Assembly (NCBI GenBank): GCA_033762255.1
Contig: JANRLT010000008.1
Location: 62,001-126,000, forward strand
Reading direction: 5' to 3'
Origin: Pirellulales bacterium
Lineage (GTDB): Bacteria; Planctomycetota; Planctomycetia; Pirellulales; JALHPA01
Length of the DNA stretch: 64,000 nt
Part shown: positions 23,881 to 40,426 of the stretch, in pieces
Layout of the letters: each line of letters opens with the position of its first letter
Numbering within the stretch: position 1 is the stretch's first letter
Position numbers and translations under genes: made by a program
The notes under the pieces: model-generated
What the model saw: the letters and a program-made list of their open reading frames with translations, nothing else
What the model was told of the DNA's origin: nothing
Database searches by the model: none

Positions 23881-26800
23881 TTAACTGATACTGGCATGAG
23901 TCGGGGGAGCCGATGTATTCCCTGGTTCCAACGAGCCATTGGACGCTGGCTGACTCGCTTGGGAAAATGGCGGTTTAGGCGATTCCTTTACGGAGGTTTG
24001 TTCGTCCCAGATATGCGCCAGTTCATCGCCGTTTTGGGCTTCGTTCATCATTTTTTCCGCTTGACCGCGGCCAAAACACCAGAAGAGGGCGGGATGGACA
24101 AAAAAGTCGAGTAACGTGGAACTGATCAATCCTCCCAGGATCACCGTAGCCACGGGATACAGGATTTCCTTGCCTGGCTCACCCGCGGCCAGAACCAAGG
24201 GTATCAAGGCGATTCCCGCCGTCAGCGCCGTCATGAGCATCGGCGCCAAGCGTTCCAGGCCCGCGCGTTCAATCATTTCCTTCGTAAACTGTTCTCCCTC
24301 GTGGCGAACAAGATGTAAATAGTGGGCGATGAGCAGAATCCCGTTTCGCGAAGCGATGCCGGACAGCGAAATGAAACCCACCATGCTGGCCACGGTCAAC
24401 GTCTGTCTGGTAACCACCAACGCGGCAACCGCGCCGATCGCAGCCATCGGCAACGCGGAGAGTACCTGCAAGGCCAAATTGGTGGAGTGGAACAGCGTGT
24501 ACAGCGCCAAGAACATTGCGGCCAACGAGATCAAACTCAACAAACCAATCATCCGCGTGGCATTTTTCTGACTTTCAAATTGCCCGCCGTATTCAATGAA
24601 ATACCCCGTCGGCAGCGATTCCTGAATTTTTGCCAAGCGGGTTTGGATGTCGGTTACGACGCTGTTGAGGTCGCGCCCCGCCGTATTGCATTGGATCACG
24701 ATCCGGCGGCGGACATTTTCGCGGTTGATTGTGTTCGGTCCGCTCCCCAGGCGGATTGAAGCCACCTCGGCTAACGGAATTCGACCGCCGGAGGGGAGAT
24801 TGATCGAGAGCCGCCGCAATCGTTCGGGGTCTTGGCGATATTCGTCATCCAACCGCACCACGAGGTCAAATTTCCTTTCCCCCAGGACGATTTCGGAAAC
24901 TACTTTGCCGTTCAAGGCGCTTTCGATGAATTCGTTGACGTAATCCGCGGTCAGCCCAAGTCGCAACAAACTATCTCGGTCAAGCTGGATTTGCAGTTGG
25001 GGGATTTCCGTCTGCTGCTCGACTTGCAGATCCTTCACGCCGGGAATGTCGGCCATGGCGGCTTTCATTTCATCCGCTTTTTGTCGCAAGATGTTCAGAT
25101 CGTCGCCATAGAGTTTGATACCGACTTGGGCTTTCACTCCGGAAAGCATGTGCGAAATGAGGTGGGCTAACGGTTGTTCGGCGGAAATCACGACGCCGGG
25201 AATTTGCGTCAGTTCTTCCCGCAGTTCTTCCAACACTTCTTCCCGGCTGCGCCCGCTGTTGGGATCGAAACTGATGATAATTTCCGAAACATTGACCCCT
25301 TCGGCATGTTCGTCCAGTTCGGCCCGCCCCGTGCGCCGACCGAAGGCGGTGACGCCCTTAATTTTGCCGATGCGTTCATCGACCATCGCGGCGATTTGAT
25401 TCGACGTGGCCAACGACGTGCCGGGCGAGAGGAGAACATTGACTTGCACGCTGCCTTCGTTGAAGGGGGGCAAAAAATCCCGCCCCAGTTGGCTCACGAC
25501 AATCACGCTCACCAAGACCGCGACCGAGACCGTGGCGAGAATCGGCACCGGGTAGCGCAAGCTAAACCGAATCGCGAAGCCGAAAACCCATTTGAGAAAG
25601 CGTAACAAAAAGCCGTCTTTGTCATGGCCCATGAATTTGGCGTTGGGCAATAGCCAATACGATAAGACGGGAGTAACGGTCAGCGAGACTACCAAAGACG
25701 CGATAATCGAGACGATATACGCGATCCCCAGCGGCGTGAACAAACGGCCTTCCATGCCTCCTAAGGCAAACAACGGCACAAAGACCAACACCACGAGAAT
25801 GGTGCTGAAGACAATCGAATTCCGCACTTCGCTACTGGCTTCATAGACCACCAGCAAGGCCGATTTTGGGTTGGCCGCATGCTTGTTCTCTTTGAGACGA
25901 CGAAAGATGTTCTCCACATCGACAATCGCGTCGTCCACCAACTCGCCGATCGCGACGGCCAAGCCCCCCAAGGTCATCGTGTTGATTGTCATCCCCGACC
26001 ACTTAAAAACTAAACCGGTGACGACAATCGAAAGCGGAATCGCGGTCAGCGTGATGAATGTTGTCCGAAAATTCATCAGAAACAAAAAGAGGATGATCAC
26101 GACCAAAATGCCGCCGTCACGCAGCGCTTCAATCACATTATGAATGCTTAAGTCGATGAATTCTTTTTGCTGATAAACCTCGGAGTTGATGATGACATCG
26201 GGCGGCAGCGAGGCCTTGAGTTCATTCAACGCTTTAATCACATCAGTCGTGATTTTGCGAGTATCCGAACCGGGCTGTTTGGCGATGACGATCATGACGG
26301 CAGGGTCGCCATCGACCGCGGCGTCGCCGCGCTTAACCTGGGCCGCCTCGCGCACGCGGGCGACCTGGCCCAAACTGATGGGATTGACGCTGTCGGACTT
26401 GATCACAATTTTATTGAGGTCTTGAATGTTCTTAATCCGTCCCATCGCGCGGACCAGAAGTTCTTTGCCACCGCTATCCAAATAGCCGCCGGTAGCGTTG
26501 GAATTGCTTTTTTTGACGGCTTGTTCCACTTCTTCCAGCGTGACGTCGTACTTGAGCAATTCATCTTCATTGACCAACACTTGATATTGCTTTCGGCCTC
26601 CGCCCATCGTGATGACTTGGGCCACGCCGGGAATGGTCAGTAAGCGTTGTCGCACCACCCAATCCGCCAAGGTCCGTAATTCAATCGGGTCCGTTTTGCC
26701 CGTTTTGCTGTACATCCCCACTTGCAAAACTTGCCCCATGATCGAAGAAATGGGGGCCATTTGGGGTTTAACTCCCGCAGGCAAGCGATCCGCGGCCAGG

Positions 26801-27144
26801 GCCAGCTTTTCGGCCACGATTTGGCGGTCGATATAAATGTCGGTCCCCCAGGCGAACTCGACGTTGATGACCGACAAGCCGACGCCTGATGCGCTCCGGA
26901 CCGCCTGCACTCCGGTGGCTCCGTTCAAGGAGGACTCCAGCGGAAAAGTAATCAGCGTTTCCACTTCTTCCGGTGCCAAGCCGAGCGCTTCGGTCATGAT
27001 CGTCACGCGGGGACGATTCAAATCCGGAAATACGTCGATCGGCAAATGATAAAGTTCATAGCTGCCGTAAACGGTCAATACGAGGGCCAGCGCGATCGTA
27101 ATGACGCGGTAGCGAAGCGATAATTTAATGATGGCGTTGAGCAT
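23881..27144 (-). CDS. heavy-metal RND efflux permease (second copy)
   Basis: 1087 residues with the same landmarks as the permease at 8975: VFPDLNRPRVTIMTEA, SGVGLSVINVEFAWGTDIY, TM4 motif ELVDDAIVDVEN (401-412), GRAELDEHAEGVN, GIASRNGILLIAHYLHL, EILYPVATVILGG. The C-terminal tail is hydrophilic and His-poor. It is not a recent duplicate: helix 4 and many loops differ. The adaptor lies 20 bases upstream in the same direction, so they form an operon. It should move metals from periplasm or membrane to the outside; the substrate is unknown, with divalent ions plausible because of the Zn/Cd ATPase nearby. Confidence 0.92.
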   Translation of the reverse strand: MLNAIIKLSLRYRVITIALALVLTVYGSYELYHLPIDVFPDLNRPRVTIMTEALGLAPEEVETLITFPLESSLNGATGVQAVRSASGVGLSVINVEFAWGTDIYIDRQIVAEKLALAADRLPAGVKPQMAPISSIMGQVLQVGMYSKTGKTDPIELRTLADWVVRQRLLTIPGVAQVITMGGGRKQYQVLVNEDELLKYDVTLEEVEQAVKKSNSNATGGYLDSGGKELLVRAMGRIKNIQDLNKIVIKSDSVNPISLGQVARVREAAQVKRGDAAVDGDPAVMIVIAKQPGSDTRKITTDVIKALNELKASLPPDVIINSEVYQQKEFIDLSIHNVIEALRDGGILVVIILFLFLMNFRTTFITLTAIPLSIVVTGLVFKWSGMTINTMTLGGLAVAIGELVDDAIVDVENIFRRLKENKHAANPKSALLVVYEASSEVRNSIVFSTILVVLVFVPLFALGGMEGRLFTPLGIAYIVSIIASLVVSLTVTPVLSYWLLPNAKFMGHDKDGFLLRFLKWVFGFAIRFSLRYPVPILATVSVAVLVSVIVVSQLGRDFLPPFNEGSVQVNVLLSPGTSLATSNQIAAMVDERIGKIKGVTAFGRRTGRAELDEHAEGVNVSEIIISFDPNSGRSREEVLEELREELTQIPGVVISAEQPLAHLISHMLSGVKAQVGIKLYGDDLNILRQKADEMKAAMADIPGVKDLQVEQQTEIPQLQIQLDRDSLLRLGLTADYVNEFIESALNGKVVSEIVLGERKFDLVVRLDDEYRQDPERLRRLSINLPSGGRIPLAEVASIRLGSGPNTINRENVRRRIVIQCNTAGRDLNSVVTDIQTRLAKIQESLPTGYFIEYGGQFESQKNATRMIGLLSLISLAAMFLALYTLFHSTNLALQVLSALPMAAIGAVAALVVTRQTLTVASMVGFISLSGIASRNGILLIAHYLHLVRHEGEQFTKEMIERAGLERLAPMLMTALTAGIALIPLVLAAGEPGKEILYPVATVILGGLISSTLLDFFVHPALFWCFGRGQAEKMMNEAQNGDELAHIWDEQTSVKESPKPPFSQASQPASNGSLEPGNTSAPPTHASIS

Positions 27145-27163
27145 GATTTGGGCGTCCGTGCGC

Positions 27164-28597
27164 TTAGTGGTTGTGGCCGGCGTGGGGATCGATGCCGCCG
27201 CCCGCCTTGTTTTTCAGGGCCAATTGCATTTGATAGGCTCCCTTGGCGGCGACCAAGTCGCCGGGAAAGAGCGTCCCGTCATTTTCAATCACCACATTGG
27301 CGATATCGCGGTATTCCACATGCACCGCGATGCGGTCGAAGTGGTCGCCATTTTGTTGGAAGACGTAGTTTTCCGCCCCCTCTTCGACCACGGCCTCGAC
27401 GGGTAGGACGATCCGGTCGGTCCATTTTTCCACCGGGATGAGCAACTCCAGTCGTTGCCCCGGACGGTACTTCCATTGAATGAATTGTTGCCCCGACTTC
27501 GTTTTGCGGGTCGATTCAATCGCATTCGGCAGACTCAAATAGAATTGAAACGAACGCGTTTCCGGATCGACATGATTCGCCATATACAGCAACTTCAGGT
27601 TGGGAATCAGGCTGTTTTCCTTTCCACTAGATTTGAGGCTGGCAGTGATGTTCGAGCCTACGCCGATGGCCCGTCGCATCGCCTCGGCGTCCGTTTCAAA
27701 AGCTTTGCCTTCGACATAGAGTTCGCAGTGATCGGCGAGCACACATAGCTCTTGTCCCGCCGTCAGATGTTGCCCCTGCTTTACCGACAATTTTTGAATG
27801 TGAAACAAATGGTCCTCGGGACAATCTTCACTCGTATGCTGATGAGCAGGGGCGTAAATCGTGATGCTTTGCAGGAGTTGGCGCGTTTTGAGGACGTCCT
27901 CAATTTGCGCTTCATTGATTCCGTGCAGGAGGAGCGCCTGCCGTTCGGCCTTCATCGACGCTTCGAGCTTCTGTTTGTCGTATTGTTGTTCCAATAACCG
28001 TTTCCCCGCCAACGCGCCGTCGCCCGCCGATTCCAAACGCTTGATTTCCCGATTGATGACGTCGAGATTCTCCGCGCTGCGCAGGAATTCCCGTTGGGCG
28101 ACCACGACTTCCTCATGCGTTAAGCGAACATCAAACAACGGACTCCCCGGTTCGACGGCGGACCCTTCGATGATGTGGACTTTGGTAACCACCCCGGTCA
28201 GCGGGGCGGGGATTTGCACTTGCGAATGCCCGGGCCGTTCGACAATGAGCGCGGGCAACGTCAGCTTGCGCTCGAAATCTTCGAGCTTGATAGTGTGTGG
28301 TCGAAATCCGATGTTTTTTAAGCCATTTGCGCTGATTTCCAGGGAGTTGCCAGCATCATGCCCGCTATGATCGTGTCCACTATGATCATGTCCCGCATGG
28401 TCATCCGCAGGCTTACTGTCCGGGTTTTCCCCTGTGGGTGGTGAATCTGTAAGATTAGTTGGTCGTATCCATTCCGCTAACTTTGCGCGTACTGGGGGCG
28501 ACCAAGTGTTCCAAGTGAAAGCACCAGTCAGCAGCAACCCCATCCCCAGTAACCACAACCAGATGTGGAAATTTGTGAAAATATTGCGAATAGGCAT
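27164..28597 (-). CDS. RND periplasmic adaptor (CusB/CzcB-like)
   Basis: 477 residues, normal family length, start set by CGGAG nine bases upstream. An N-terminal membrane anchor (WLWLLGMGLLLTGAFTW) is followed by HAGHDHSGHDHSGHDAG, a His-rich metal-binding stretch, then barrel-sandwich QIPAPLTGVVTKVHIIEGSA, an alpha hairpin (REFLRSAENLDVINREIKRL), HIQKLSVKQGQHLTAGQELC and a barrel/MPD end (VAAKGAYQMQLALKNKAGG), finishing in DPHAGHNH. It joins the permease just downstream to an outer-membrane channel. It is also the nearest relative in the window of the broken adaptor at 1-860. Confidence 0.92.
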   Translation of the reverse strand: MPIRNIFTNFHIWLWLLGMGLLLTGAFTWNTWSPPVRAKLAEWIRPTNLTDSPPTGENPDSKPADDHAGHDHSGHDHSGHDAGNSLEISANGLKNIGFRPHTIKLEDFERKLTLPALIVERPGHSQVQIPAPLTGVVTKVHIIEGSAVEPGSPLFDVRLTHEEVVVAQREFLRSAENLDVINREIKRLESAGDGALAGKRLLEQQYDKQKLEASMKAERQALLLHGINEAQIEDVLKTRQLLQSITIYAPAHQHTSEDCPEDHLFHIQKLSVKQGQHLTAGQELCVLADHCELYVEGKAFETDAEAMRRAIGVGSNITASLKSSGKENSLIPNLKLLYMANHVDPETRSFQFYLSLPNAIESTRKTKSGQQFIQWKYRPGQRLELLIPVEKWTDRIVLPVEAVVEEGAENYVFQQNGDHFDRIAVHVEYRDIANVVIENDGTLFPGDLVAAKGAYQMQLALKNKAGGGIDPHAGHNH

Positions 28598-29261: not shown

Positions 29262-29621
29262 AAATTAACTCATCGATACAATTGATACCATTACTTTATG
29301 GAAATTCAAATATTTAGACAAGGGACAATGCTGCCCGTCAAATGAATGCATAGGCATTGCAAGAGATACCACTTCACTTAAACCACTTTTACGCAAATGC
29401 AATAGAAATGGATATGTCATTGTTAATTTATATCATGTTTAAAGCGTAAAGTCAAGTTACGCATTAATAGAGTCATCGTCTCTGCCAAGTATCGGTCGCC
29501 AAAGGTAAACTAACGGTATAACAATCGTTCACAGCTACAAACCTTTCCGTGGAGCAAAGAACGGGATCGATTTCAAATTGCTATTGCGCAAAATTCTTTG
29601 CACTTCTATTTGCAACTACCC
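29262..29621. other. AT-rich junction between the metal region and the mobile-element core
   Basis: About 360 bases, clearly more AT-rich than the flanks, with no credible gene. It holds the second copy of the 16-base element (29455-29470). The change in base composition here and the different gene style on the right suggest a module boundary. Confidence 0.45.
29455..29470 (-). repeat. 16-base element shared with 18415-18430
   Basis: On the minus strand CTATTAATGCGTAACT, 194 bases upstream of the Cys-rich gene start at 29261. It is 14 of 16 identical to the element at 18415-18430. Confidence 0.35.
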
Positions 29622-30293
29622 TCACCCCCGCCTCAGTATCCTCCACACGGTGGATGCGTGCCATAGGCGGCCTTTGCCGCGGCAGCGGATTTTTGAATCA
29701 TTCAGCCGCGTGGCGATGGCGGAGGCCCCCAGCCCTTGGGCGTGCAAGTTGCGGATGAGCCGCAGGGTCGATTGCTCGTCCGGCACGGGCAGCAGTTTTT
29801 TGCCAACTTTACGGTAACCATACGGCGGCACGCTGCCCATGGCCCGACCGGCGCTTTGATGGCGCAGCATCATGGCCGAAGTGCGCGAGCGGCTAAGCTC
29901 CCGCTGCATTTCGGCCAGCGCCGCAAAGACCGTGCTGACAAACCGGGCCGTGGGATTGTCCGTCATGCTCCAGTCCCCTTCGCTAATTGACACGAGCTTA
30001 GCCCCTTTGCGTTCAATCTCACGGGCCAGCACAATCGACCATTCCGCGTCCCGGGCCAGGCGGCTCCAGTCCCGCACGACCAGGCGATCCCCACGTTTAA
30101 GCTCGGCCAGCGCTGTAAATAGTCCAGCCCGCTCACGGTCGGCCCCTGATATGTCGCGGTCGGCATAGTGGGCCTTGACGGACCAGCCCTGCCGAGCCGC
30201 CCAAGCGTCGATCTCAGCCCACTGCCGCTCGACACTGTGGCAATCTTGTGCGTTGGGCCTGGGGGAGAAGCGGGCGTAGGCGATGATGGGCAT
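29622..30293 (-). CDS. serine recombinase (resolvase/invertase family)
   Basis: About 223 residues from the ATG at 30293, which has AAGGAG nine bases upstream. The catalytic domain opens MPIIAYARFSP with Ser10 as nucleophile and Arg8, and continues DRDISGADRERAGL, VVRDWSRLARDAEW (active-site Arg region) and RFVSTVFAALAEMQREL. After the long helix comes GSVPPYGYRK and a small HTH end (GASAIATRLNDSKI). It is shorter than large serine integrases, so a resolvase or invertase role on the element is more likely than integration. It is the last gene of the minus-strand element operon. Confidence 0.88.
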   Translation of the reverse strand: MPIIAYARFSPRPNAQDCHSVERQWAEIDAWAARQGWSVKAHYADRDISGADRERAGLFTALAELKRGDRLVVRDWSRLARDAEWSIVLAREIERKGAKLVSISEGDWSMTDNPTARFVSTVFAALAEMQRELSRSRTSAMMLRHQSAGRAMGSVPPYGYRKVGKKLLPVPDEQSTLRLIRNLHAQGLGASAIATRLNDSKIRCRGKGRLWHASTVWRILRRG

Positions 30294-30304
30294 AGGGGGG
30301 CTCC

Positions 30305-30547
30305 TTACTTGGTAAACGACATATCGTGCAAGCACTGAAAATAGCCGGCCGCGAACCCTTTAAGGTGTTCTACTTCTTCGGGGGGGACGCCCACGGCTTC
30401 CACTTCGTAAGTTTCCTCGTCGCCTTCAATAAGATAGTCACCCTGTTTGGTGAGGGTGAATTCCCAAGCGGGGCACTCCTCTTGCAGTGCCTTGTGGAGA
30501 CGGTCGGCCAAATCATCATATACGGTAGTGACTAAAACGAGCGGCAT
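30305..30547 (-). CDS. small acidic protein, unknown
   Basis: 80 residues with GGAGG a few bases before the ATG at 30547. It is acidic, with alternating beta/alpha pattern (MPLVLVTTVYDDLADRLHKA; YLIEGDEETYEVEAVGVPPE; LKGFAAGYFQCLHDM). I do not recognise the family. It is 11 bases upstream of the recombinase gene, so co-translated with it, and could be a partner or an unrelated cargo protein. Confidence 0.6.
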   Translation of the reverse strand: MPLVLVTTVYDDLADRLHKALQEECPAWEFTLTKQGDYLIEGDEETYEVEAVGVPPEEVEHLKGFAAGYFQCLHDMSFTK

Positions 30548-30647
30548 GTTACCTCCAATTGCCTTTGCATGAAATTTACGGCACTACGCGGGCCGTTAGC
30601 GATCCCGATATGTTGCCCGCGTCGGGATCAGCGCGGGAGGGAGAAAC

Positions 30648-31049
30648 TTAGTGTTCGCTCGGCAAGTACAGGCAGACCTTTGCGCGGTCATGCACCAAGT
30701 ACAACCTGAAATTCTCTAGCTCGGGGAAGTCGGTGAACGGGACATCTTGGGAAGCCATCTCTAGCCCGTCGCCGTCGTCACAGTAGACGCGGCAACCCCC
30801 GTTGCCGTCGTGCTGCACACGCCAGACCTGGAACTCCATGCGATAGCGGGGATCGTCCAGCGACCGCCTGATAATCTCCGCTTGGTGGGAGAATATCAGG
30901 TCCAGCAACCAATGCGCACCGGCTTTTTCGGCCAGGTACCGCACCCCATCAGTGTAAACAAAGCGGCTGTTCATCCAGTGCCGGTAATAATTCTCGGTTC
31001 CCGTGAACTGCCGCAACTCGGACTGCAATTCATCAATCATGGTAGCCAT
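30648..31049 (-). CDS. DUF6876-like protein
   Basis: About 133 residues from the ATG at 31049, which has GGGAG eight bases upstream. The pattern ELRQFTGTENYYRHWMNSRF, then YTDGVRYLAEKAGAHWLLDL and a beta-rich end (FQVWRVQHDGNGGCRVYCDD) match my memory of the DUF6876 family found in plasmids and integrative elements. Its function is unknown. It lies in the same operon as the AAA genes. Confidence 0.68.
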   Translation of the reverse strand: MATMIDELQSELRQFTGTENYYRHWMNSRFVYTDGVRYLAEKAGAHWLLDLIFSHQAEIIRRSLDDPRYRMEFQVWRVQHDGNGGCRVYCDDGDGLEMASQDVPFTDFPELENFRLYLVHDRAKVCLYLPSEH

Positions 31050-31124
31050 CGTGGTACTCCCTAAAAAAGAAAACGGGCTTGTTCGCCAACTGCCAAAAAC
31101 CACAAACAGCACTACGAAAATCGC

Positions 31125-31988
31125 TCAAAAAGCCGTAATTGCCGCGTTTTCCGCGAATTTGGCGGCTTGTTCGAGCAGCCAAGTAGCCGCCGCTTCCTTC
31201 GCCCACAAATCTTGGCACAAGATCGCGCCCGGCTCAATCATGTTGGCAATCTCGTCGGTCATAAGCCGTGGAAAGCCTAAGTTGTCGGTCAACACTCGCC
31301 CCTCGGTGGACATGGCATAAAACCACATCGTCCGATACGCCCAGCCGCTCAAGGCGTTAGCCAACAGGGACTCGCTCACGGGTTGACCGTAATCCTTGAC
31401 CACGCAGGACAGCACCAAATCATCCCCGTTGGTGTACGAATTGAGATTGTACTTGGCGGCAACTAGCCGAACACTGTATCCCGCGCTTTCCAGCCAGTCC
31501 GCCAGGGCCACGCACGCCGCGCCGCGCCACAGAATATCCTGACTATTCACCCCGCAATGTGCGCCAGTGTTGCACAAGAGCGTAACATTGCTGCGCCCTA
31601 GAGTGGCCGTCCGGCGACACTCTTGCCAGTACGGTTGGCCAGAACGCAGCCGGTCAACACATAGGCTGTCGCCGCCATCCTCATTCCACCGTAAACGCCG
31701 CTTGACGTTCACGGGCATAGGGAGTTCTATCGAGTCCAGCGCATTCTTGACCGCGTTGTAATCCTTGAATGTCGGCTTATGGTGGCCGTGCAACTCTTGT
31801 TTGGCATGGTCAATGCCGGTAAACTTCCGACCGATCCAAGAGTGATTGTGTTGCCCAAACAGTGCGCCTAGAGTGTCCTTGTTTTCAACGTCCTGAGCCG
31901 CTGGCACACTGTTGGCTAGGTCGTCCAGCGAGTCGAATTCTCGCTGGACTAGGCCCCCGATCCCCCTTGTGTGATAAGTCTCTAGCAT
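31125..31988 (-). CDS. DUF7192-like protein, partner of the MoxR-like ATPase
   Basis: 287 residues. GGAG lies eight bases before the ATG at 31988, and the gene overlaps the ATPase stop by seven bases, so translation is coupled. N-terminal FDSLDDLANSV, a basic middle (NVKRRLRWNEDGGDSLCVDR), then SGQPYWQECRR and TLLCNTGAHCGVNSQDILWR with the alpha/beta pattern GAACVALADWLESAGYSVRLV. This resembles DUF7192 proteins, which I recall as VWA-like and often paired with MoxR AAA ATPases, though a metal-ion adhesion motif (DxSxS) is not seen. The role is unknown; an assembly or remodelling pair is one possibility. Confidence 0.62.
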   Translation of the reverse strand: MLETYHTRGIGGLVQREFDSLDDLANSVPAAQDVENKDTLGALFGQHNHSWIGRKFTGIDHAKQELHGHHKPTFKDYNAVKNALDSIELPMPVNVKRRLRWNEDGGDSLCVDRLRSGQPYWQECRRTATLGRSNVTLLCNTGAHCGVNSQDILWRGAACVALADWLESAGYSVRLVAAKYNLNSYTNGDDLVLSCVVKDYGQPVSESLLANALSGWAYRTMWFYAMSTEGRVLTDNLGFPRLMTDEIANMIEPGAILCQDLWAKEAAATWLLEQAAKFAENAAITAF

Positions 31989-32998
31989 GGCAATTTCTCC
32001 AAGATCGAGGCGGCGGCTTTGCGTTCATCAGCCGACCAGGCTACGAGCATGTCGGCGAATATCTCGCGGTACGCTTCCCCCACGTTGCGGCAAGCTTGGG
32101 CGGCCAGCATGTCGCGGGTGCCGACAATCTGCCGAAACTTCCGTTCCCGCACCAAGTCCCGCAGTTTCCAGCAGGTATCCCGCACTACGGAATCCGGCAC
32201 TAAATCCGCTTCCAGTTCGCGGTCATAGTCACATTCCAGGGTGGCACACGTGAAACGGTTAAGTGTGGCAGCGTCAAGCTGGTTGCGGCCAGCGTACATG
32301 CGGTCAGCTCCTAGGCCAAACGTGTTGGCCGCCGAAATCACCTTGAAGTTGGCGTGTTTGTTGGCCAGGGGCTTATCGGTACGATTAGGCAACGCCATAA
32401 ACTTCCCAGCCAATGCCGCATTGAGCACGGTGCACGTGTTGCCGTCGGCGGCATCGAACTCATCGAGCAGGAACATTCCCCCTTGCTCATACGCTTGCAC
32501 AAACTGTGCTGGCACATAGCCGAACGTGCCACCCGCTTCCACGGGCAACAGTCTACCCAACAGTTGCCCCTCACTCATGCCCGCACTGCAAGAGATGAAG
32601 CTAAACTCTAGCCCCAACTCTTGGGCAGCTTGAGCGGCCAGCGTGGTCTTACCGCTCCCAGCAGGCCCCACCAGCATCACATTTAGGCCCGCCGCTAGCT
32701 TACGCAGCACTTTAGGCAACAGCTTGTGACGCCGTTCCGTAGACTTCACGGGCGGCACTACCACTTCCACCTTCGCGGCCCGGGGCTTACGCTTCGGGGC
32801 CTCGCAAGGGTAAAAATGTTGCCAGGTCATATCGCCACTAGGCGAACGGCCGGAGGGCTTTACTTTCTCATTCAGGGGCATAGTCTGCCCGCACTTGCTA
32901 CAGTCGCGCTCATGCTGGTTATAAACCCAGCCTAGAGCCTCGGCGTGCAGGTCCAGCGATAGCTGGGTGTCCACACGCCCACGGTCTAACGTGAACAT
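31982..32998 (-). CDS. MoxR-like (AAA_5 type) ATPase with N-terminal zinc-ribbon-like part
   Basis: 338 residues. An N-terminal Cys pattern CSKCGQTMP (33-36, with a further Cys near 65) resembles a zinc ribbon. The AAA core has Walker A GPAGSGKTT (111-119), Walker B MFLLDEFDAADG (175-186), sensor 1 ISAANTFG, and the NRFTCATLECDYDRELE region seen in MoxR/dynein-related ATPases. It probably works as a ring that remodels its partner, most likely the protein encoded immediately downstream with which it overlaps by seven bases. Confidence 0.85.
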   Translation of the reverse strand: MFTLDRGRVDTQLSLDLHAEALGWVYNQHERDCSKCGQTMPLNEKVKPSGRSPSGDMTWQHFYPCEAPKRKPRAAKVEVVVPPVKSTERRHKLLPKVLRKLAAGLNVMLVGPAGSGKTTLAAQAAQELGLEFSFISCSAGMSEGQLLGRLLPVEAGGTFGYVPAQFVQAYEQGGMFLLDEFDAADGNTCTVLNAALAGKFMALPNRTDKPLANKHANFKVISAANTFGLGADRMYAGRNQLDAATLNRFTCATLECDYDRELEADLVPDSVVRDTCWKLRDLVRERKFRQIVGTRDMLAAQACRNVGEAYREIFADMLVAWSADERKAAASILEKLPC

Positions 32999-33098
32999 GG
33001 TAAATCTCCCTTAAAGCACCACCAAAAACCAAGATCAGCGCGGCAAAAACAACTACGAAATTGCCGCGGAAATGCGGATTTTTAGGGGGGGGGCAAGG

Positions 33099-33755
33099 CT
33101 AGTCCGCCATACACCCGCTATCTATCGCTTGCAACACTGCCCGCATGTTATGCTTGCACTGTCGCACCAGGTCCACATAAGCCCCTATAGGCTTACCGTC
33201 CAACCCGTGCTTCTGCGCTATCCGCCTGGCTTCCAACGCAAACGCTAATTCCAACTCTTTGCCGTTAGAGAGTAACTCTAACCGGATACAACGTGACAAC
33301 AGTGGCGCAGTGTCTAGGCAATCCTCAAACAGTGCCTCCTGCCCCTCATTCGTGGTAGTGAAAATCACCACGGCATAGTCTGGTAACCGTTCCAGTACAT
33401 CCAAAAACTGGCGGATTGTGTCTTTACGCAGCCCGTGCGCCTCATTCACAATCAGCGCATGCCCCTTACCGTCGATGCACCTACACCGTAGGCCACGTTC
33501 CCAATCGTCCAAACTCTTCGGCGTAAGCTGGGAAACGCTAGTTTCCGTAGTGGCAAACTCGCTTGCCACATCACTGGCAATAATCTTGGCCAGGGTAGTC
33601 TTACCCGTGCCGGATAATCCGCTAATCCAGTACGCTCTCCCACCCCACCCACCGCCACCGTGGCCCTGTAACGCTGTGAGTTTCTTTACAGTAGGCGGCT
33701 GTCCTACAACGCCTTCAAGCGTTTTGGGCCGCTCCCGCTCAAATAATGCAGGCAT
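33099..33755 (-). CDS. clamp-loader/RuvB-like AAA ATPase
   Basis: About 218 residues from the ATG at 33755, which has GGGAGA nearby; a longer frame lacks support. The start RPKTLEGVVGQPPTVKKL is the classic opening of clamp-loader and RuvB proteins. Walker A is GLSGTGKTTLAK, Walker B has the variant ALIVNEAHGLRK (Asn where Asp is usual), sensor 1 is VVIFTTTN and the Arg-finger region is LLSRCIRLEL. It lacks the C-terminal collar domain of full clamp loaders, so it is a small stand-alone ATPase that may load element replication or recombination proteins. Confidence 0.82.
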   Translation of the reverse strand: MPALFERERPKTLEGVVGQPPTVKKLTALQGHGGGGWGGRAYWISGLSGTGKTTLAKIIASDVASEFATTETSVSQLTPKSLDDWERGLRCRCIDGKGHALIVNEAHGLRKDTIRQFLDVLERLPDYAVVIFTTTNEGQEALFEDCLDTAPLLSRCIRLELLSNGKELELAFALEARRIAQKHGLDGKPIGAYVDLVRQCKHNMRAVLQAIDSGCMAD

Positions 33756-33850
33756 GACACATTCTCCCTTGCTACTTGACCGCACACCCTCACAGTAAGG
33801 GTGTAGGGATAAGTGCTCCCCCACCAAGGGGGAGCTAGGGAATTCACACA

Positions 33851-34267
33851 CTAGGCCGCCGCCTTAACCTTGTTCTTTGCCTTAGCCGCTTTCTCCGCAG
33901 CGTGTTTAGCCTTGCTCGCGGCACTACGCTGGTCGATGAGCGAAATATTCGCCTTAACAAACTCGTCGTAACGGTCGAGCTTGGCACGGATAGCAGCAAC
34001 AGTCTCAACTCGCAGGATTGTGCCAAACTGGGCGTTACCGCCAGCAAGCCGCCCAAAGTTAATCGCCCCGCTCTCTGTCACCGTGAACTCTGCCCCGGTG
34101 GATTGCTTAGGCAGCACGTCGACCGCATCGGCGGGCTTAATCGCCCCGCTCTGAACGCCCAACAGGACGTACCGCAGTGTTGCACTGTCATGCCCGATCA
34201 GAGAGCAAGTCTCGTCCACGGACAATCCACCCTTGGCCAGTTCGCCTAGCACTTCTAAATTGGTCAT
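33851..34267 (-). CDS. unknown protein with helical Ala/Lys-rich C-terminus
   Basis: 138 residues with AAGGGAGAG before the ATG at 34267. The N-terminal half (MTNLEVLGELAKGGLSVDET, HDSATLRYVLLGVQSGAIKP) looks like a short helical domain, and the segment TESGAINFGRLAGGNAQFG is glycine-rich. The end (ASKAKHAAEKAAKAKNKVKA) is highly basic and helical, suggesting nucleic-acid or membrane contact. No family is recognised. It is in the operon with the AAA ATPases. Confidence 0.6.
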   Translation of the reverse strand: MTNLEVLGELAKGGLSVDETCSLIGHDSATLRYVLLGVQSGAIKPADAVDVLPKQSTGAEFTVTESGAINFGRLAGGNAQFGTILRVETVAAIRAKLDRYDEFVKANISLIDQRSAASKAKHAAEKAAKAKNKVKAAA

Positions 34268-34386
34268 AACTACACACTCTCCCTTGAAAAGTAACGGTAA
34301 CGCTTGCCAACAGTAGGCTCGCTGGTGTAATGCCCTACGCTAGGCAGGGCATTTAGCCGGGAAGTCTACGGCACCAACACACTGGC

Positions 34387-34530
34387 CTAATCTTCAAGAG
34401 CTGGCTGGTCATTTAGCCATTTGTAAAAGTCGTCGTAATCAGGGTTTGGTTCCAACTCTGAAATGTCAATCAGAGCCAGTTGTGCCTCAAACTCTTGAAT
34501 CAGATACTCTTCCAACTGTGCTACGCTCAT
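34387..34530 (-). CDS. 47-residue acidic protein, first gene of the minus-strand element operon
   Basis: A short frame preceded by AAGGGAGA, the same ribosome-site style as its downstream neighbours. It encodes MSVAQLEEYLIQEF, then an acidic helix-rich remainder ending LNDQPALED. It is strongly acidic, with 13 Asp or Glu in 47 residues. No family is recognised. The shared ribosome site and position at the head of the operon support it as a real gene. Confidence 0.55.
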   Translation of the reverse strand: MSVAQLEEYLIQEFEAQLALIDISELEPNPDYDDFYKWLNDQPALED

Positions 34531-35509: not shown

Positions 35510-35809
35510 ATGTTAAATGAGCAAGAAGCGCTCGACAGTCTGCGTCGGCTGAAGCCGGTCAAGGCCAAACGAATTGGTACGGATGCCCGAGGAGCGGCCC
35601 AGATTCTCGGAGTGGCACAATCAACCCTGGCAGAGTGGCAGCGTCAAGGCAAGGTGCCATTTTGCAAAATCGGCGGGAGAGTTTTCTATTCGCTTTCGGC
35701 CCTGAAAACCTGGCTGGCGGAACTCTGCAATCGGCGAGCGGCGGTGGAACTCGAACCCCGCCCAAAAGGCAAGAAGGCCAAGCGGAATCAACCGACGGGA
35801 ACTCAATAA
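35510..35809 (+). CDS. excisionase/MerR-like HTH DNA-binding protein
   Basis: 99 residues with AAAGGAG before the ATG. The core TDARGAAQILGVAQSTLAEW, then QRQGKVPFCKIGGRVFYSLSALKTWL is the helix-turn-helix 'HTH_17' excisionase fold (an AAxxLGVsxxTlxxW..G.iPxxxigrrvfy pattern). The basic tail (KGKKAKRNQPTG) could add DNA affinity. It may direct excision of the element or regulate the downstream primase gene, 25 bases away. Confidence 0.85.
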   Translation: MLNEQEALDSLRRLKPVKAKRIGTDARGAAQILGVAQSTLAEWQRQGKVPFCKIGGRVFYSLSALKTWLAELCNRRAAVELEPRPKGKKAKRNQPTGTQ

Positions 35810-35834: not shown

Positions 35835-38453
35835 ATGCAATTATACAACCGAGATAACGTTTTACGAACACAGCAGACCCTTTGCGAATCCGGCGGCACA
35901 TTTGAAATTCGGATACTTGATGGCGTGACCGCAAGCGATAAACGGAGCAAAGTTTATTCGGGTTATTTTGATTCTCCGCATGCAGCGGTGAATGCCCTGG
36001 CTGAGCAGCGATTTGTTTCGTGGAAGGGGTGCTATGTCACACCGAACCCAGTGAAACCCGACCTACTAGCCCGGGCGGTGAACAAATTTAAAAGCGGCAT
36101 TAAATCGGCCAGTGATAGCGATATTGTTTCACGTCGATGGTTACTGATTGACGTTGACCCAAAACGCCCGGCGGAAACTTCAAGCTCCGATGCCGAACAC
36201 GCGGCGGCGGCTGAAAGAATTAATGCTATCGACAATTGGCTCTGGGAAAGATTCCAGTACCCGCCCGCGATCGTGGCGGATAGTAGCAACGGTGCCCATG
36301 CCCTCTATAGAATCGACCTGCCCGCCGATGATGACGGGATAATTAAGAAAGTGCTAAAAGCAATTGCCCACGAATGGGACGATGAAACTTGCAAGGTGGA
36401 TTGCAGCGTTTTTAACCCCGCGAGAATCTGGCGGCTATACGGCACGATAACTTGCAAAGGAGACTCAGACGGAGACAAGCTCACACCCGCCCGACCTTGG
36501 CGAACAAGCAAGATTCTAGTTCGGCCCGATGCCTTGCGAGTGGTAACTCGTGAGCAATTGGAGGCGGTAGCAGCACTTGCCCCACAGCCCCAGCAACCGG
36601 CCCCACAGGCCCGGGTGAACGGCTATCGTGGTAATAGGCAGTTTGACCTGGACGCCCTCTTGGCACGTGCTCCGTTTGAAATACGCGGCCCACAGCCCTA
36701 CCAAGGTGGCTCTAAGTGGATCATGCCCGTGTGCCCGCGCAACCCGGAGCATAACAAGGGCGAAGCGTTTATCATTCGGCGACCGGATGGAACCATTCAA
36801 GCCGGATGCCAGCATAACAGTTGCCAGCAATTCGGCTGGCATGATTTACGGGACATTCTGGACCCGGGCTGGCGCGAACGCAAAGCCGACCGGCAAACAA
36901 GCGGGGCTTGGAAAGATGCGGCCAATGGCCGGGTAAATGGCAAGCCCTACAACGCCCCCCCTCTGCGGGCAATCCCGCCGGATAGCGGCTGGGTGCCGTT
37001 TCCTGCGGGGGCTTTGCCGAAAAATGCCCGCGATTATGTGCGGGAACAAGCCGAGCAAATTCAGTGCGACGAAGCGTATTTGGCTTTGCCCCTCTTGGCT
37101 CTGGCGGGGAGTGCAATCGGGGCAACGCGGCGGCTACGATTAACCCCAAGCTGGACGGTCCCCCCGATACTTTGGGTGGCCGTACTCGGGGAGAGCGGAC
37201 GCAAGAAAAGCCCGGCCCTAATCGCAATAAAAAATCTGGTTATGAAGCGACAGGAAAAGGAGTTTCGGGATTTTGAACAGCATGAAAGCGAATTTCAGGA
37301 ACATCAAATACGCTACGAAAAGGAGCTTGCGGCGTGGAAGAAAAATACCAAACAGGATGGCGAACCGCCCCCCACTAAGCCCAAGGCCCCGATAGCCCGG
37401 CGGTATTTGGTGGAAGATTGCACGCTGGAAACACTTGCCAAAATCCTCAAGGAAAATCCCCGGGGGGTGCTGCGATACAGTGAGGAACTGGGAAGCTGGC
37501 TCTCGTTTGGCGAATACAAAAAAGATTCGCGGGGCGACCTAAACAGGTGGCTTAGTTTGTGGAATGGCGACAGCGTAACAATCGACCGCTCAAGCCACTC
37601 GCAACGGACAACGCACATTCCGCAAACGGCGATTAGTATTTTTGGTGGAACGCAACCCGAGACGCTGGCGGCGACGTTTGGGCGGCAGGAACTGGCCAGC
37701 GGATTAGCGGCCAGACTGCTATTCTGTCAGCCCCCGGCCCGCCTAAGCGTTTGGCTGGACGATTACCCGCCCCTGCAATTTGAGCAACCCATACGGGAGC
37801 GAATTCGGGACTTGCAAGATTTGGAATTCAAAAACGGGGGGCAGTTTGAACCCCACGATTTTGGCGGAACAGACTTGGTGATTCACGCCCCCGAACCCAG
37901 CGACGGCGAAAATGAGCCAGTGGAGCTGGTTTTTTCCGATGATGCCAAGCCGATTTGGCGGGATTTTTATAACGCCCACAATCGGGAGACGTTTGACCTC
38001 TCGGGGAACTTGGCGGCGGCGTTTAGTAAGCTGGAAGCATACGCCCCCAGGCTAGCCCTCATCTTACAATTGATCAGTAATCCCCAGGCCCGGGAAGTTG
38101 GCAAGCATGCCCTCTTGGCGGCTATTCGTTTGGTTGAGTGGTTTAAGCATGAGGCAACGCGGCTGTACGGGCAACTGTCCCTCAGCCCAGAGCAACGGGA
38201 AACACAACAGACAATCTCGCTAATTCAGCGGCGCGGGGGACGTATAACCCACCGGGAGCTAATGCGGCGGGATAAGCGATTTGAGACAGCGGAAGCGGCG
38301 GAAAGCTTTTTGCAGCAATTGGTCGATGGCGGATTAGGGCTTTGGGAACCGGTGCCCCCAGGCCCCAAGGGTGGCCGACCGGCACGTGAATTTGTGTTAG
38401 CACAAGAGGTTACAGCCCCCCCCTCAAATCCTGCCCAAGCGGGGATGCGGTGA
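35835..38453 (+). CDS. element replication protein: primase-like N-terminus plus DUF3987 helicase-like domain
   Basis: 872 residues. The N-terminal third has the archaeo-eukaryotic-primase-like pattern LLIDVDPKRP (about 103-112), VADSSNGAHALY (147-158), and DCSVFNPARIWRLYG, matching AEP/primpol proteins of mobile elements. A small zinc-binding segment with C300, H306, C325 and C330 follows (PVCPRNPEHNK, AGCQHNSCQ). From about 380 on is a DUF3987-type domain with GESGRKKSP (452-460, Walker A-like), VLRYSEELGSWLS (Walker B-like) and SIFGGTQPETLA. Such fusions initiate replication of plasmids, satellites and integrative elements. It overlaps the next gene by four bases. Confidence 0.85.
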   Translation: MQLYNRDNVLRTQQTLCESGGTFEIRILDGVTASDKRSKVYSGYFDSPHAAVNALAEQRFVSWKGCYVTPNPVKPDLLARAVNKFKSGIKSASDSDIVSRRWLLIDVDPKRPAETSSSDAEHAAAAERINAIDNWLWERFQYPPAIVADSSNGAHALYRIDLPADDDGIIKKVLKAIAHEWDDETCKVDCSVFNPARIWRLYGTITCKGDSDGDKLTPARPWRTSKILVRPDALRVVTREQLEAVAALAPQPQQPAPQARVNGYRGNRQFDLDALLARAPFEIRGPQPYQGGSKWIMPVCPRNPEHNKGEAFIIRRPDGTIQAGCQHNSCQQFGWHDLRDILDPGWRERKADRQTSGAWKDAANGRVNGKPYNAPPLRAIPPDSGWVPFPAGALPKNARDYVREQAEQIQCDEAYLALPLLALAGSAIGATRRLRLTPSWTVPPILWVAVLGESGRKKSPALIAIKNLVMKRQEKEFRDFEQHESEFQEHQIRYEKELAAWKKNTKQDGEPPPTKPKAPIARRYLVEDCTLETLAKILKENPRGVLRYSEELGSWLSFGEYKKDSRGDLNRWLSLWNGDSVTIDRSSHSQRTTHIPQTAISIFGGTQPETLAATFGRQELASGLAARLLFCQPPARLSVWLDDYPPLQFEQPIRERIRDLQDLEFKNGGQFEPHDFGGTDLVIHAPEPSDGENEPVELVFSDDAKPIWRDFYNAHNRETFDLSGNLAAAFSKLEAYAPRLALILQLISNPQAREVGKHALLAAIRLVEWFKHEATRLYGQLSLSPEQRETQQTISLIQRRGGRITHRELMRRDKRFETAEAAESFLQQLVDGGLGLWEPVPPGPKGGRPAREFVLAQEVTAPPSNPAQAGMR

Positions 38454-38686: not shown

Positions 38687-39116
38687 ATGCCCCGAAATCG
38701 TGGGGAGAAGATAATGGGTTATTTGACTCGGGAAACATAGGTAGTGATTAAGGGCAGGATAGTGTGTGCCTGGCAATTTGCTACTTAACCGATAGAATTG
38801 GGTAATGAGCAAGCACCCCCCCCGACTATCGCTGAACAGTTGAAATCGGCCAATAGTGCCGTTGGCCGCGCAAGGTACAGAATCGCGATTGATGCCCAGA
38901 TAGCGCATAAAAACGCTATCACGATCTTGTAACGGTGAACGGGGACTGATTTGAGACTCACTAGAGCGATTAACCAAAACACTCGTATCGGTGATGACAA
39001 ACCAAAGCAATCACAGACTCGGTGACACAACCTCATAATACTGGGGAAATACTAAGGTTGTGTCACGGTCACGCTTAACAAACATTCCAAAAACCAATTT
39101 TCGTAGCGAGCAAAAA
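38687..39116. other. stretch between the small acidic gene and the integrase gene
   Basis: About 430 bases with no supported gene. Its only clear feature is the second GTGACACAACC inverted repeat at 39022-39066, just before the integrase start. The opposite-strand frame over 38785-39036 has no ribosome site. Confidence 0.45.
39022..39066. repeat. inverted repeat GTGACACAACC, copy 2
   Basis: GTGACACAACCT (39022-39033) and AGGTTGTGTCAC (39055-39066), perfect 12-base arms and 21-base spacer. The 11-base core equals that of the copy at 38450-38493, so the core occurs four times as two head-to-head pairs, 50 bases before the chosen integrase start. Confidence 0.75.
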
Positions 39117-40391
39117 ATGGCCAGTGTCCAAAGAATGGCAAACGGAGCTTTTCGGGTGCAATTTGTGATGCCAGACCGTAGTAGAAGCTCACTTAACCTG
39201 GGTGGGGTACCAGAGCGTTTTGCTAATAAAATGGCGGAGCATATCGACGAAATCCTACACAGTCGTAAAAAGGGATACCCCTTAGCCCGCGACACAATCG
39301 CCTGGATCAGGGAATTAACTCCTGAAATAAGGGAAAAGCTCTCAGCCGTGGGGTTGCTCGAAAAGACTTCCGACATACATCTGGGACCGTTTGTCAGACA
39401 ATATATCGAGAAGCGAACAGACCTTAAATGGCGAAGCCGAAATAACTTGGAACAGGCGGCAGGTTGCTTGATTCAATTTTTTGGGGAGCAATGCTTGCTC
39501 TCTGAAATTACCGATGCAAAAGCCGTGGAATACTCCATTTGGTTGAGGGGAAAACGTGGACTTTCGAAGGCGACCGCGAACCGTCATACAGCCCGAGCCA
39601 AGCAGTTTTTCATTCATGCGGTGAAAGATAAATTGCTATCCGAGAATCCATTCACACAATTTAAGAAGCTCAAGGTGCGCTCGAACCCAGAACGCGCCTA
39701 TTTTATAGACCGCCCCACATACGAAAAACTGTTAGCCAATTGTCCGAATCAAAGGTGGCGGGCAATTTTAGCATTTGCCCGCATAGCTGGTTGCCGGATT
39801 GATAGTGAAATTAAGCGCATGACCTGGGGTGACATTCACTGGCAATCAGGGAAAGTGTTAATCTATTCCCCCAAAACTGAACATCACGAAGGGCAAGATA
39901 AACGCTGGGTACCTTTATTTCCTGAATTGCGTGCCGAGCTAGAACTTCTATTTGAGGAACACGGCAAGCCCGCTAAACGCCCCACGCAGAGCGTATTCGG
40001 TTCATCCCCCGAGGATTGCAAGAATTTACGAACGCAATTTACCCGCATTATTTCGCGGGCAGGATTGATTCCCTGGCCCAAGCCATTCGTGAACTTGCGA
40101 GCGAGCAGAATCCGGGAACTCAAAGAAACCACCCCCGCCTGGAAAGTTGATAAATGGTGCGGGCACTCAGGGGAAGTGTCGGAGGAATTCTATCTTACTT
40201 TACACGATTCCGATTTTTTAGAAGCAGCAAATGTCTGTGCATTTTCTGACGAACTTATAGACTCGCATGGTATCCGACCAAGCGAGTACCAAAAAGAAAA
40301 CCCCGCGTTTTGCGGGGTATTGGACTCTATTGGATATTATACAAACGTGCAGGTACCCCTACGGGGATTCGAACCCCGGTTTTCGGGCTGA
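39117..40391 (+). CDS. tyrosine recombinase (phage-type integrase)
   Basis: About 424 residues from the ATG at 39117; the open frame reaches 39060, but the earlier start would lie in the inverted repeat. An N-terminal arm/SAM-like domain (DLKWRSRNNLEQAAGCLIQF) precedes the catalytic domain with AGCRIDSEIKRMTWGDI (Arg box I, about R227), K near 253 (SPKTEHH), NLRASR (box II Arg328; the usual His three before is Val, as in some planctomycete integrases), WCGHSG (His350) and SEEFYLTL (Tyr359 nucleophile). Its last codons are read from tRNA-Glu sequence (VQVPLRGFEPRFSG). It integrates the island in that tRNA gene. Confidence 0.9.
   Translation: MASVQRMANGAFRVQFVMPDRSRSSLNLGGVPERFANKMAEHIDEILHSRKKGYPLARDTIAWIRELTPEIREKLSAVGLLEKTSDIHLGPFVRQYIEKRTDLKWRSRNNLEQAAGCLIQFFGEQCLLSEITDAKAVEYSIWLRGKRGLSKATANRHTARAKQFFIHAVKDKLLSENPFTQFKKLKVRSNPERAYFIDRPTYEKLLANCPNQRWRAILAFARIAGCRIDSEIKRMTWGDIHWQSGKVLIYSPKTEHHEGQDKRWVPLFPELRAELELLFEEHGKPAKRPTQSVFGSSPEDCKNLRTQFTRIISRAGLIPWPKPFVNLRASRIRELKETTPAWKVDKWCGHSGEVSEEFYLTLHDSDFLEAANVCAFSDELIDSHGIRPSEYQKENPAFCGVLDSIGYYTNVQVPLRGFEPRFSG
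40291..40319 (-). terminator. tRNA-Glu terminator embedded in the integrase gene
   Basis: Read leftward, ACCCCGC and GCGGGGT form a seven-base stem with a short AAAAC-type loop followed by TTTTCTTTTT, a textbook rho-independent terminator 35 bases beyond the tRNA-Glu 3' end. It is antisense to the last codons of the integrase (ENPAFCGV). The element side of the junction therefore supplies the terminator for the host tRNA. Confidence 0.82.
40354..40391. other. probable attachment site (attR-like) in the tRNA-Glu 3' end
   Basis: The overlap of integrase gene and tRNA 3' half is the standard place of an island attachment core; the exact core cannot be defined without the other end. I looked for a second copy of the segment TACCCCTACGGGGATTCGAA to the left in the window and did not see one. 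Confidence 0.6.
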
Positions 40392-40426
40392 GAACCCGAC
40401 GTCCTGGGCCTCTAGACGATAGGGGC
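40354..40426 (-). tRNA. tRNA-Glu (anticodon CTC)
   Basis: 73 bases without encoded CCA. The acceptor GCCCCTA pairs with TAGGGGT (first pair G-T), the anticodon stem TCGGG/CCCGA holds loop TTCTCAG with anticodon CTC, and the T arm is CGGGG-TTCGAAT-CCCCG. It reads codon GAG. Its 3' half lies inside the 3' end of the integrase gene (up to 40391), which marks the attachment site. Confidence 0.93.

Follow-up and report, generated by a model that had tools for sequence, protein, structure and literature searches.

We found that the DNA analysed here, a window of 64,000 nucleotides (nt) from a Pirellulales bacterium, holds a module (29622-34530) whose core is likely a chaperone pair for protein remodelling, made of a MoxR AAA+ ATPase and a DUF7192 protein that would act as a von Willebrand factor A (vWA) partner without a metal-ion adhesion site; jointly with this, and as likely, tailed phages carry MoxR-DUF7192 as a cassette and the host took the pair up in three islands, with a clamp-loader-like ATPase. 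The module consists of eight open frames, verified in the window and all on the minus strand, as the initial annotation of this DNA had it when it described eight genes in a row. In the 5' to 3' direction they encode a 47-amino-acid (aa) leader, a 138-aa protein (p138), the clamp-loader-like ATPase, MoxR, DUF7192, a DUF6876 protein, an 80-aa protein and a serine recombinase. The assignments made at that stage to a MoxR-like ATPase, a DUF7192-like gene and a recombinase agree with the Pfam matches (AAA_5, 2e-17; DUF7192, 9e-19; Resolvase, 1e-29). That the genes form a single operon is suggested by shared strand and spacing alone, as there are gaps of about 75-120 nt ahead of several of them.

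MoxR and DUF7192 as a conserved pair

The MoxR-clade ATPase (338 aa; 31982-32998, minus strand; AAA_5, phrog_249) carries a Walker A motif GPAGSGKT at residue 111 and a Walker B motif FLLDE at 176, and its AAA_5 match (E 1.8e-17, 64 bits against a cut-off of 22) identifies a MoxR-clade AAA+ core. Searched against the Protein Data Bank (PDB), its profile matches Midasin most strongly (1e-57) and also CobS, CbbQ and NorQ. The N-terminus has a CxxC, which may be part of a zinc site. The start of the gene of the DUF7192 protein (287 aa; 31125-31988, minus strand) overlaps the MoxR stop. This overlap, noticed earlier, measures 7 nt (31982-31988), and its junction ...CCATGCTAG is identical in the three other copies.

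When we examined IMG/VR loci, represented by the best 80 of 368 confirmed MoxR relatives, DUF7192 lay downstream of MoxR in 78 of the 80, on the same strand in all 78, with an overlap in 36 of the 78 and a start within 100 nt in 34. The DUF7192 profile used for this count came from nine other proteins, none of them among the 80. In the two remaining loci the sequence breaks off 177 nt (L073) and 1 nt (L094) past MoxR. The relatives were fetched with a MoxR alignment (A4) whose members had been discovered through DUF7192, and the linkage count therefore holds for this subfamily and not for viral MoxR at large. On genome contigs, with at least 51 relatives and a DUF7192 profile built from alignment A5, the partner was found downstream in 32 of the 36 scoring at least 110 bits to the MoxR profile, a figure that includes L149, although its DUF7192 is 1343 nt away, and L120-L122, which are the same loci as some behind A4; in the four misses (L129, L132, L151 and L153) the stretch ends soon past or within MoxR. 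Among the matches listed, 0 of 15 below 110 bits had DUF7192, Rhizobiales CobS loci included. A further alignment, A6, omits the four phage-record proteins of A5 as well as near-duplicate or cut loci.

MoxR and DUF7192 are thus adjacent and inherited together, and the conserved unit across viruses is this two-gene pair, to which the clamp loader (its family in 12 of 91 loci), the serine recombinase and the small genes are accessories. This bears on the idea that the ATPase pair is a helper of the serine recombinase, remodelling the recombination complex of the island. The recombinase is the last module gene in the three genomic copies and in the IMG/VR contig L028, and is 97-98% identical among the three; it is near the pair in only 5 of the 91 loci, where the pair itself is near-universal, and the islands have tyrosine integrases of their own, leaving the helper role very unlikely.

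At the sensitivity used, only 16 of 50,697 phage records contain DUF7192, and plasmids gave no match. PF23822 turned up in 4 of the 294 genomes examined for the phylum (our own included), and among the 57 genomes searched as relatives our own was the only one with DUF7192. With the single MoxR or clamp-loader protein as query, no close relatives were found in viral contigs. In the crAss-like phages cr10_1 and cr118_1 the pair stands amid DNA polymerase, primase and helicase genes, and DUF7192 relatives of crAss-like phages adjoin genes labelled 'porphyrin biosynthesis'. In an Acinetobacter phage and a Rhizobium phage, DUF7192 relatives lie near AAA ATPase genes. The term DUF7192 was not found in the literature searched, and the available portions of papers on viral CobST and MoxR-vWA pairs do not use the name; in the present survey most of the viral loci examined link this family, which has no described function, to a MoxR ATPase.

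Fold of DUF7192 and its metal site

Next, we investigated the fold of DUF7192. All 71 aligned members match PF23822, and the AlphaFold2 model built from the 71-row alignment has a predicted local distance difference test score (pLDDT) of 91.2 and a predicted template modelling score of 0.84. The Foldseek search of the PDB returned only four chains with E at or below 1e-3, all of them partial matches to vWA domains of NorD bound to the MoxR ATPase NorQ (3.1e-6 to 5.7e-5). A search of BFVD with the model placed phage DUF7192 proteins first, then CobT and vWA proteins. With VIA-align, in which absences were not counted as evidence, the top match was the domain of Rea1 that bears the metal ion-dependent adhesion site (MIDAS), in 6qt8 (Z 8.4, 6.3 Å, 171 aligned) and 6qta (Z 8.3, 3.6 Å, 159 aligned), followed by Mdn1 and NorD, with vWA and I-domain proteins filling the list. 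In a single profile-profile comparison with seven CobT proteins, the first strand, the helix and the second strand align (53%, E 1.3e-4), where none of eight controls (clamp loader, MoxR, reversed CobT and five column shuffles) exceeded 1.6%, and the CobT motif DNSGS falls on DUF7192 position 140 onwards. Because of the structural matches to NorD and Rea1 and the profile alignment with CobT, we read DUF7192 as a divergent vWA-like domain, with a predicted vWA-like (Rossmann-like) fold that its models match in part.

The metal site appears to have been lost, as computed from the aligned sequences: DxSxS is absent from 71 of 71 members, and the position of the first MIDAS residue holds N in 37 and D in 24 of them. 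The best conserved columns include R97, G106, W121, G170, K198, R219 and G238. Residues 94-129, which are well conserved, form in the model a strand, a short helix and a strand just before the first vWA strand, and by this order of elements they would be placed like the pore finger of NorD. In NorD, according to the accessible part of PMC9976466, one strand connects the finger with the MIDAS, and mutants of the MIDAS keep NorQ binding and lose activation of the target; the finger enters the NorQ pore, as described in the available text of PMC13036017. The conserved finger-like segment and the lost metal motif together fit an adaptor that would engage the ATPase and grip its target otherwise. 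If the loss is confirmed, such machines can hold a target without a metal site. Partners of the vWA type without one or both aspartates have already been described in other systems (PMC7159879, in the part available). No VWA_CoxE protein was found in our own genome.

Several points weigh against this reading. The Pfam vWA family is found in none of the 71 DUF7192 members. The NorD match is partial, because the Foldseek TM-scores (0.23-0.28) are low and the root mean square deviation is large, and VIA-align rows below Z 8, such as that of NorD itself (9qh6, Z 7.8, 8.6 Å, 198 aligned), may reflect a common arrangement only. The DUF7192 profile against CobT in PDB sequences alone gave E 0.21, third of six and not significant. 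The position of the finger is assigned from the order of elements alone. Finally, the genes around the pair vary: in a survey that scanned 190 of 234 listed proteins from 42 non-redundant loci, omitting mostly small or opposite-strand frames, each PHROG family was seen in at most 2 of 96 or 1 of 94 proteins, and the neighbours also include genes for tail proteins, terminase and methyltransferase.

The likeness to CobT raises the question of whether the pair is a virus-borne cobaltochelatase, CobS with a CobT-like partner, that boosts vitamin B12 synthesis with the CobN of the host. The PHROG label 'porphyrin biosynthesis' on the MoxR protein and the profile similarity of DUF7192 to CobT agree with it, and viral cobST pairs have been so interpreted (PMC8651126) and listed as metabolic genes (PMC11288001), going by the portions of these papers available. 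Those cobST cassettes of tailed viruses also resemble our pair in layout, being two genes for a CobS-like ATPase and a vWA partner (PMC8651126, same portion), whereas the partner here is DUF7192, of about 290 aa, and not a CobT with an intact metal site. CobN (PF02514) was not found in the host genome, which is 96.6% complete, whereas it was found in 5 of 14 control genomes; MoxR scores 25 bits against the CobS equivalog cut-off of 559; the CobS-like cellular loci, 15 among the matches listed, are without DUF7192; and the metal site is lost. The absence of a detectable CobN and a CobS score so far under the cut-off mean that the cobaltochelatase explanation fails in this host, and we regard it as highly improbable. 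The aerobic cobaltochelatase (CobNST) was accordingly rejected as a family for the pair. Placing DUF7192 among vWA-like proteins argues against a vitamin B12 gene in this host, and it connects the MoxR-vWA chaperones with a phage cassette that bears the labels 'porphyrin biosynthesis' or 'transcriptional regulator'.

Proposed function

For the chaperone pair with a vWA-like partner, we infer a mechanism by analogy with NorQ-NorD. The MoxR AAA+ ATPase would form a ring, and DUF7192 would be its translationally coupled vWA-like adaptor, with the metal-ion adhesion site gone. Residues 94-129 of the adaptor would enter the pore of the ring, ATP hydrolysis would pull or twist the adaptor, and the adaptor would hold the target via a surface other than the metal site. 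The target would most likely be a nucleoprotein or protein complex of the DNA metabolism of the element or of the phage itself. This is our first choice, loosely held, because of the placement within a replication module in crAss-like phages and the clamp-loader companion in planctomycetes; support for a replication target is weakened by the varying genes around the pair, with tail, terminase and methyltransferase genes among them. A more specific version, possible and on balance doubtful, is a phage-derived replisome-remodelling machine in which a MoxR ring with the metal-site-less vWA adaptor would act on a clamp, clamp loader or primase complex, from an operon with genes gated by module-specific RNA structures over their ribosome sites, which p138 may read; in that version the adaptor would grip its target through a new surface, for which the near-invariant K198, R219 and G238 are candidate residues. 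The initial annotation had proposed a remodelling complex on a mobile island that acts in recombination or replication, or in protection. The remodelling pair of ATPase and DUF7192, the mobile island and the conserved gene order are upheld, whereas action on recombination or replication and protection of the host are not.

NorQ-NorD, which inserts iron into nitric oxide reductase, is like our pair in joining a MoxR-clade ATPase to a vWA protein, in that, of all solved structures, the NorD vWA domain matches the DUF7192 model best, and in that a conserved segment of DUF7192 precedes the first strand, at the place of the NorD pore finger (PMC9976466, as far as its text was available). It is unlike it in that DUF7192 is without DxSxS, which belongs to the metal site required by NorD to activate its target, and without the large N-terminal domain of NorD, is found on phages and islands, and would serve another target. 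Midasin (Rea1/Mdn1) supplies both the strongest PDB match to the MoxR profile, in its AAA+ domains, and the top VIA-align match to DUF7192, in its MIDAS domain, whereas it is one giant eukaryotic chain that works in ribosome assembly with its metal site in use.

Virus-encoded MoxR ATPases with a vWA co-chaperone are also known from the Acidianus two-tailed virus (ATV) and from jumbo phages, and on this model our pair would be a virion-assembly chaperone. In the accessible part of PMC4124505, ATV p618 binds the vWA protein p892, which enhances the ATPase activity of p618, and a role in virion assembly was proposed for the jumbo-phage pair (PMC7824862, likewise in part); tail or terminase genes are close by in some of our loci. 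In those systems, as far as these sources go, the partner is an intact vWA or peptidase-vWA protein linked to virion assembly, whereas the scanned part of our island showed no recognisable virion genes: for none of the 10 proteins scanned between 29.6 and 40.4 kb of the window was the best match a virion protein. Selection nevertheless maintains the module in three islands, and the crAss-like phage pair stands amid replication genes. We therefore hold a virion-assembly role to be unlikely; it may apply to phages, and it agrees badly with islands of this kind.

A system of defence or of conflict between elements, such as the MoxR-vWA ternary systems, has points in common with our pair as well. 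Predicted conflict systems have a MoxR-vWA core, in some of which the vWA protein lacks one or both metal-site aspartates (PMC7159879, in the available portion), and two of the module copies end beside a CRISPR (clustered regularly interspaced short palindromic repeats) repeat. Among the module proteins there is no effector or named third component, PADLOC run on the eight proteins returned only weak generic AAA matches (E 1e-4 to 4e-4) and no known system, and the pair is carried mainly by phages themselves, which makes defence improbable. The earlier statement that no defence system could be named here agrees with the PADLOC result.

Module copies, companion genes and structured RNAs

MoxR occurs three times in the host genome, in the window, on contig C43 (96% identical; locus L004) and on contig C49 (90%; locus L005), and a fourth full module lies on the IMG/VR contig L028, with p138, clamp loader, a small gene, MoxR (75%), DUF7192 and DUF6876 in the same order and, further on, the serine recombinase. 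The gene order, kept in the three genomic copies and in L028, is thus not unique to the element of the window. Over five genes and four copies, the ratio of nonsynonymous to synonymous substitution rates (dN/dS) is 0.04-0.25 in every pair with a computable dS, and the module genes are under purifying selection. Because of the three genomic copies, the fourth module and these dN/dS values, the module is more than a chance arrangement. Homology at the DNA level among the copies covers the block from p138 to the recombinase and ends outside it. Each genomic copy lies near a different integrase and a different replication gene, encoding a DUF3987 protein in the window, a DnaB-N/DUF3987 protein on C43 and a Toprim-containing protein on C49, and the copies sit at a tRNA-Glu, at a tRNA-like remnant (judged by eye) and at a tRNA-Arg, respectively. 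No integrase was found in the L028 record, which is a fragment.

The clamp-loader-like AAA+ ATPase (218 aa; 33099-33755, minus strand) has a conserved ATG start; a GTG that would extend the frame to 33851 probably does not serve as the start. Its Walker B motif is NEAH in all three genomic copies, as the initial annotation had recorded for the window. It is homologous to phage clamp-loader small subunits and to DnaX, matching phrog_5846 (1.4e-18), phrog_168 (4e-13) and DnaX in the PDB (2e-5), and resembles the first domains of DnaX gamma/tau. A usual clamp-loader subunit has three domains. Unlike such subunits, the 218-aa ATPase is too short for three, has NEAH and not DExx, and lies in a MoxR operon. 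In four planctomycete loci with a terminase-like gene (L024 and L025, and L026 and L027 of genome G056), the genes after MoxR-DUF7192 encode a DUF6573-type protein (Pfam hit in L024), a clamp-loader ATPase and a distinct protein similar to the C-terminal domain of RarA/MgsA; these RarA-C-like proteins score 23.0 and 22.8, below the Pfam cut-off of 27.

The leader open reading frame (ORF; 47 aa, 34387-34530, minus strand) has a counterpart in L004 with a related start (MSVAQLEEYL), and other short ORFs take its place in L005 and L028. It is followed by p138 (33851-34267, minus strand), to which no family was assigned and which has a lysine- and alanine-rich C-terminus; p138 is the most conserved module protein (83-97% between copies), its AlphaFold2 model (pLDDT 61) is too poor for use, and it matched nothing in phages or in 293 further genomes from the phylum. 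Beyond DUF7192 lie the DUF6876 protein (133 aa, 30648-31049, minus strand; Pfam DUF6876, 6e-36), whose gene directly follows DUF7192 in L028 as well (51% identical), the 80-aa protein (30305-30547, minus strand), which has a relative (35%) elsewhere in the module of L005, and the serine recombinase (223 aa, 29622-30293, minus strand), with a resolvase domain (1e-29) and a short C-terminal domain.

We also observe RNA structures between the module genes, which may be a new cis-regulatory class. In R1, between the p138 and clamp-loader genes (33760-33850, minus strand), two hairpins show compensatory changes and an outer helix lies over the Shine-Dalgarno stretch. Its window copy is far more stable than shuffles (z -4.7, 0 of 200). 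Across five sequences, compensatory changes affect 8 of the 30 predicted pairs, a count that none of 500 shuffles reaches, and slid structures are much worse. R2, before the p138 gene (34268-34386, minus strand), has a main hairpin with compensatory changes in four sequences and a possible outer helix with the Shine-Dalgarno stretch; its count of compensatory pairs is not above shuffles (172 of 500), its covariation score is (0 of 500), and its window copy alone is not more stable than shuffles (z -0.14). In both, the outer helix, which shows no compensatory change, would cover AAGGGAG before the start codon. Across the genome, R1 (E at or below 1e-20) and R2 (E at or below 1e-30) occur only within the three modules, other matches being weak (E 0.2 and 0.9). 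R1 had no match in 63 further fetched loci, and no Rfam family matches these structures. Further copies of R2 lie in L028 at 140-251 (E 1.5e-10) and 1293-1397 (E 0.008), and both end at start codons. Ahead of MoxR lies a conserved intergenic stem-loop (32999-33098, minus strand; z -1.85), in which none of the 22 predicted pairs shows a compensatory change. L004 (8204-8713) and L028 (1006-1397) each carry two copies of the RNA element that precedes the clamp-loader gene, separated by a small ORF. Hairpins with a CGTAG loop recur between module genes, with counts on the coding and the other strand of 4 and 0 in L004, 6 and 0 in L005, and 2 and 1 in L028, under a strict stem rule and with some hairpins inside genes.

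The rest of the integrated element in the window lies on the plus strand and comprises a helix-turn-helix/excisionase-like gene (35510-35809), the DUF3987 gene (35835-38453), which has DNA helicase/primase PHROG matches, and a tyrosine integrase (39060-40391), whose 3' end overlaps the gene of tRNA-Glu(ctc) (40352-40426, minus strand), the presumed attachment site. The limits of the island are not fixed, because the genome has no second tRNA-Glu 3' end (24 nt, at most 2 mismatches) and the stretches tested have no direct repeat of the integrase ends. At 29619 the homology of the window copy to C43 and C49 stops, at the stop codon of the recombinase, and C43 and C49 continue into shared CRISPR-side sequence. 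On C49 a CRISPR array directly follows the serine recombinase (L005 13340-14388), with a 36-nt repeat in 13 matching units up to the contig end, and its 12 spacers had no clear match to the loci compared, among the matches listed. On C43 one CRISPR repeat is kept (L004 12465-12540), with the same adjoining sequence as on C49. To the left of the module, long genes on the minus strand of the window (23881-28597) resemble, by eye, a heavy-metal efflux cluster.

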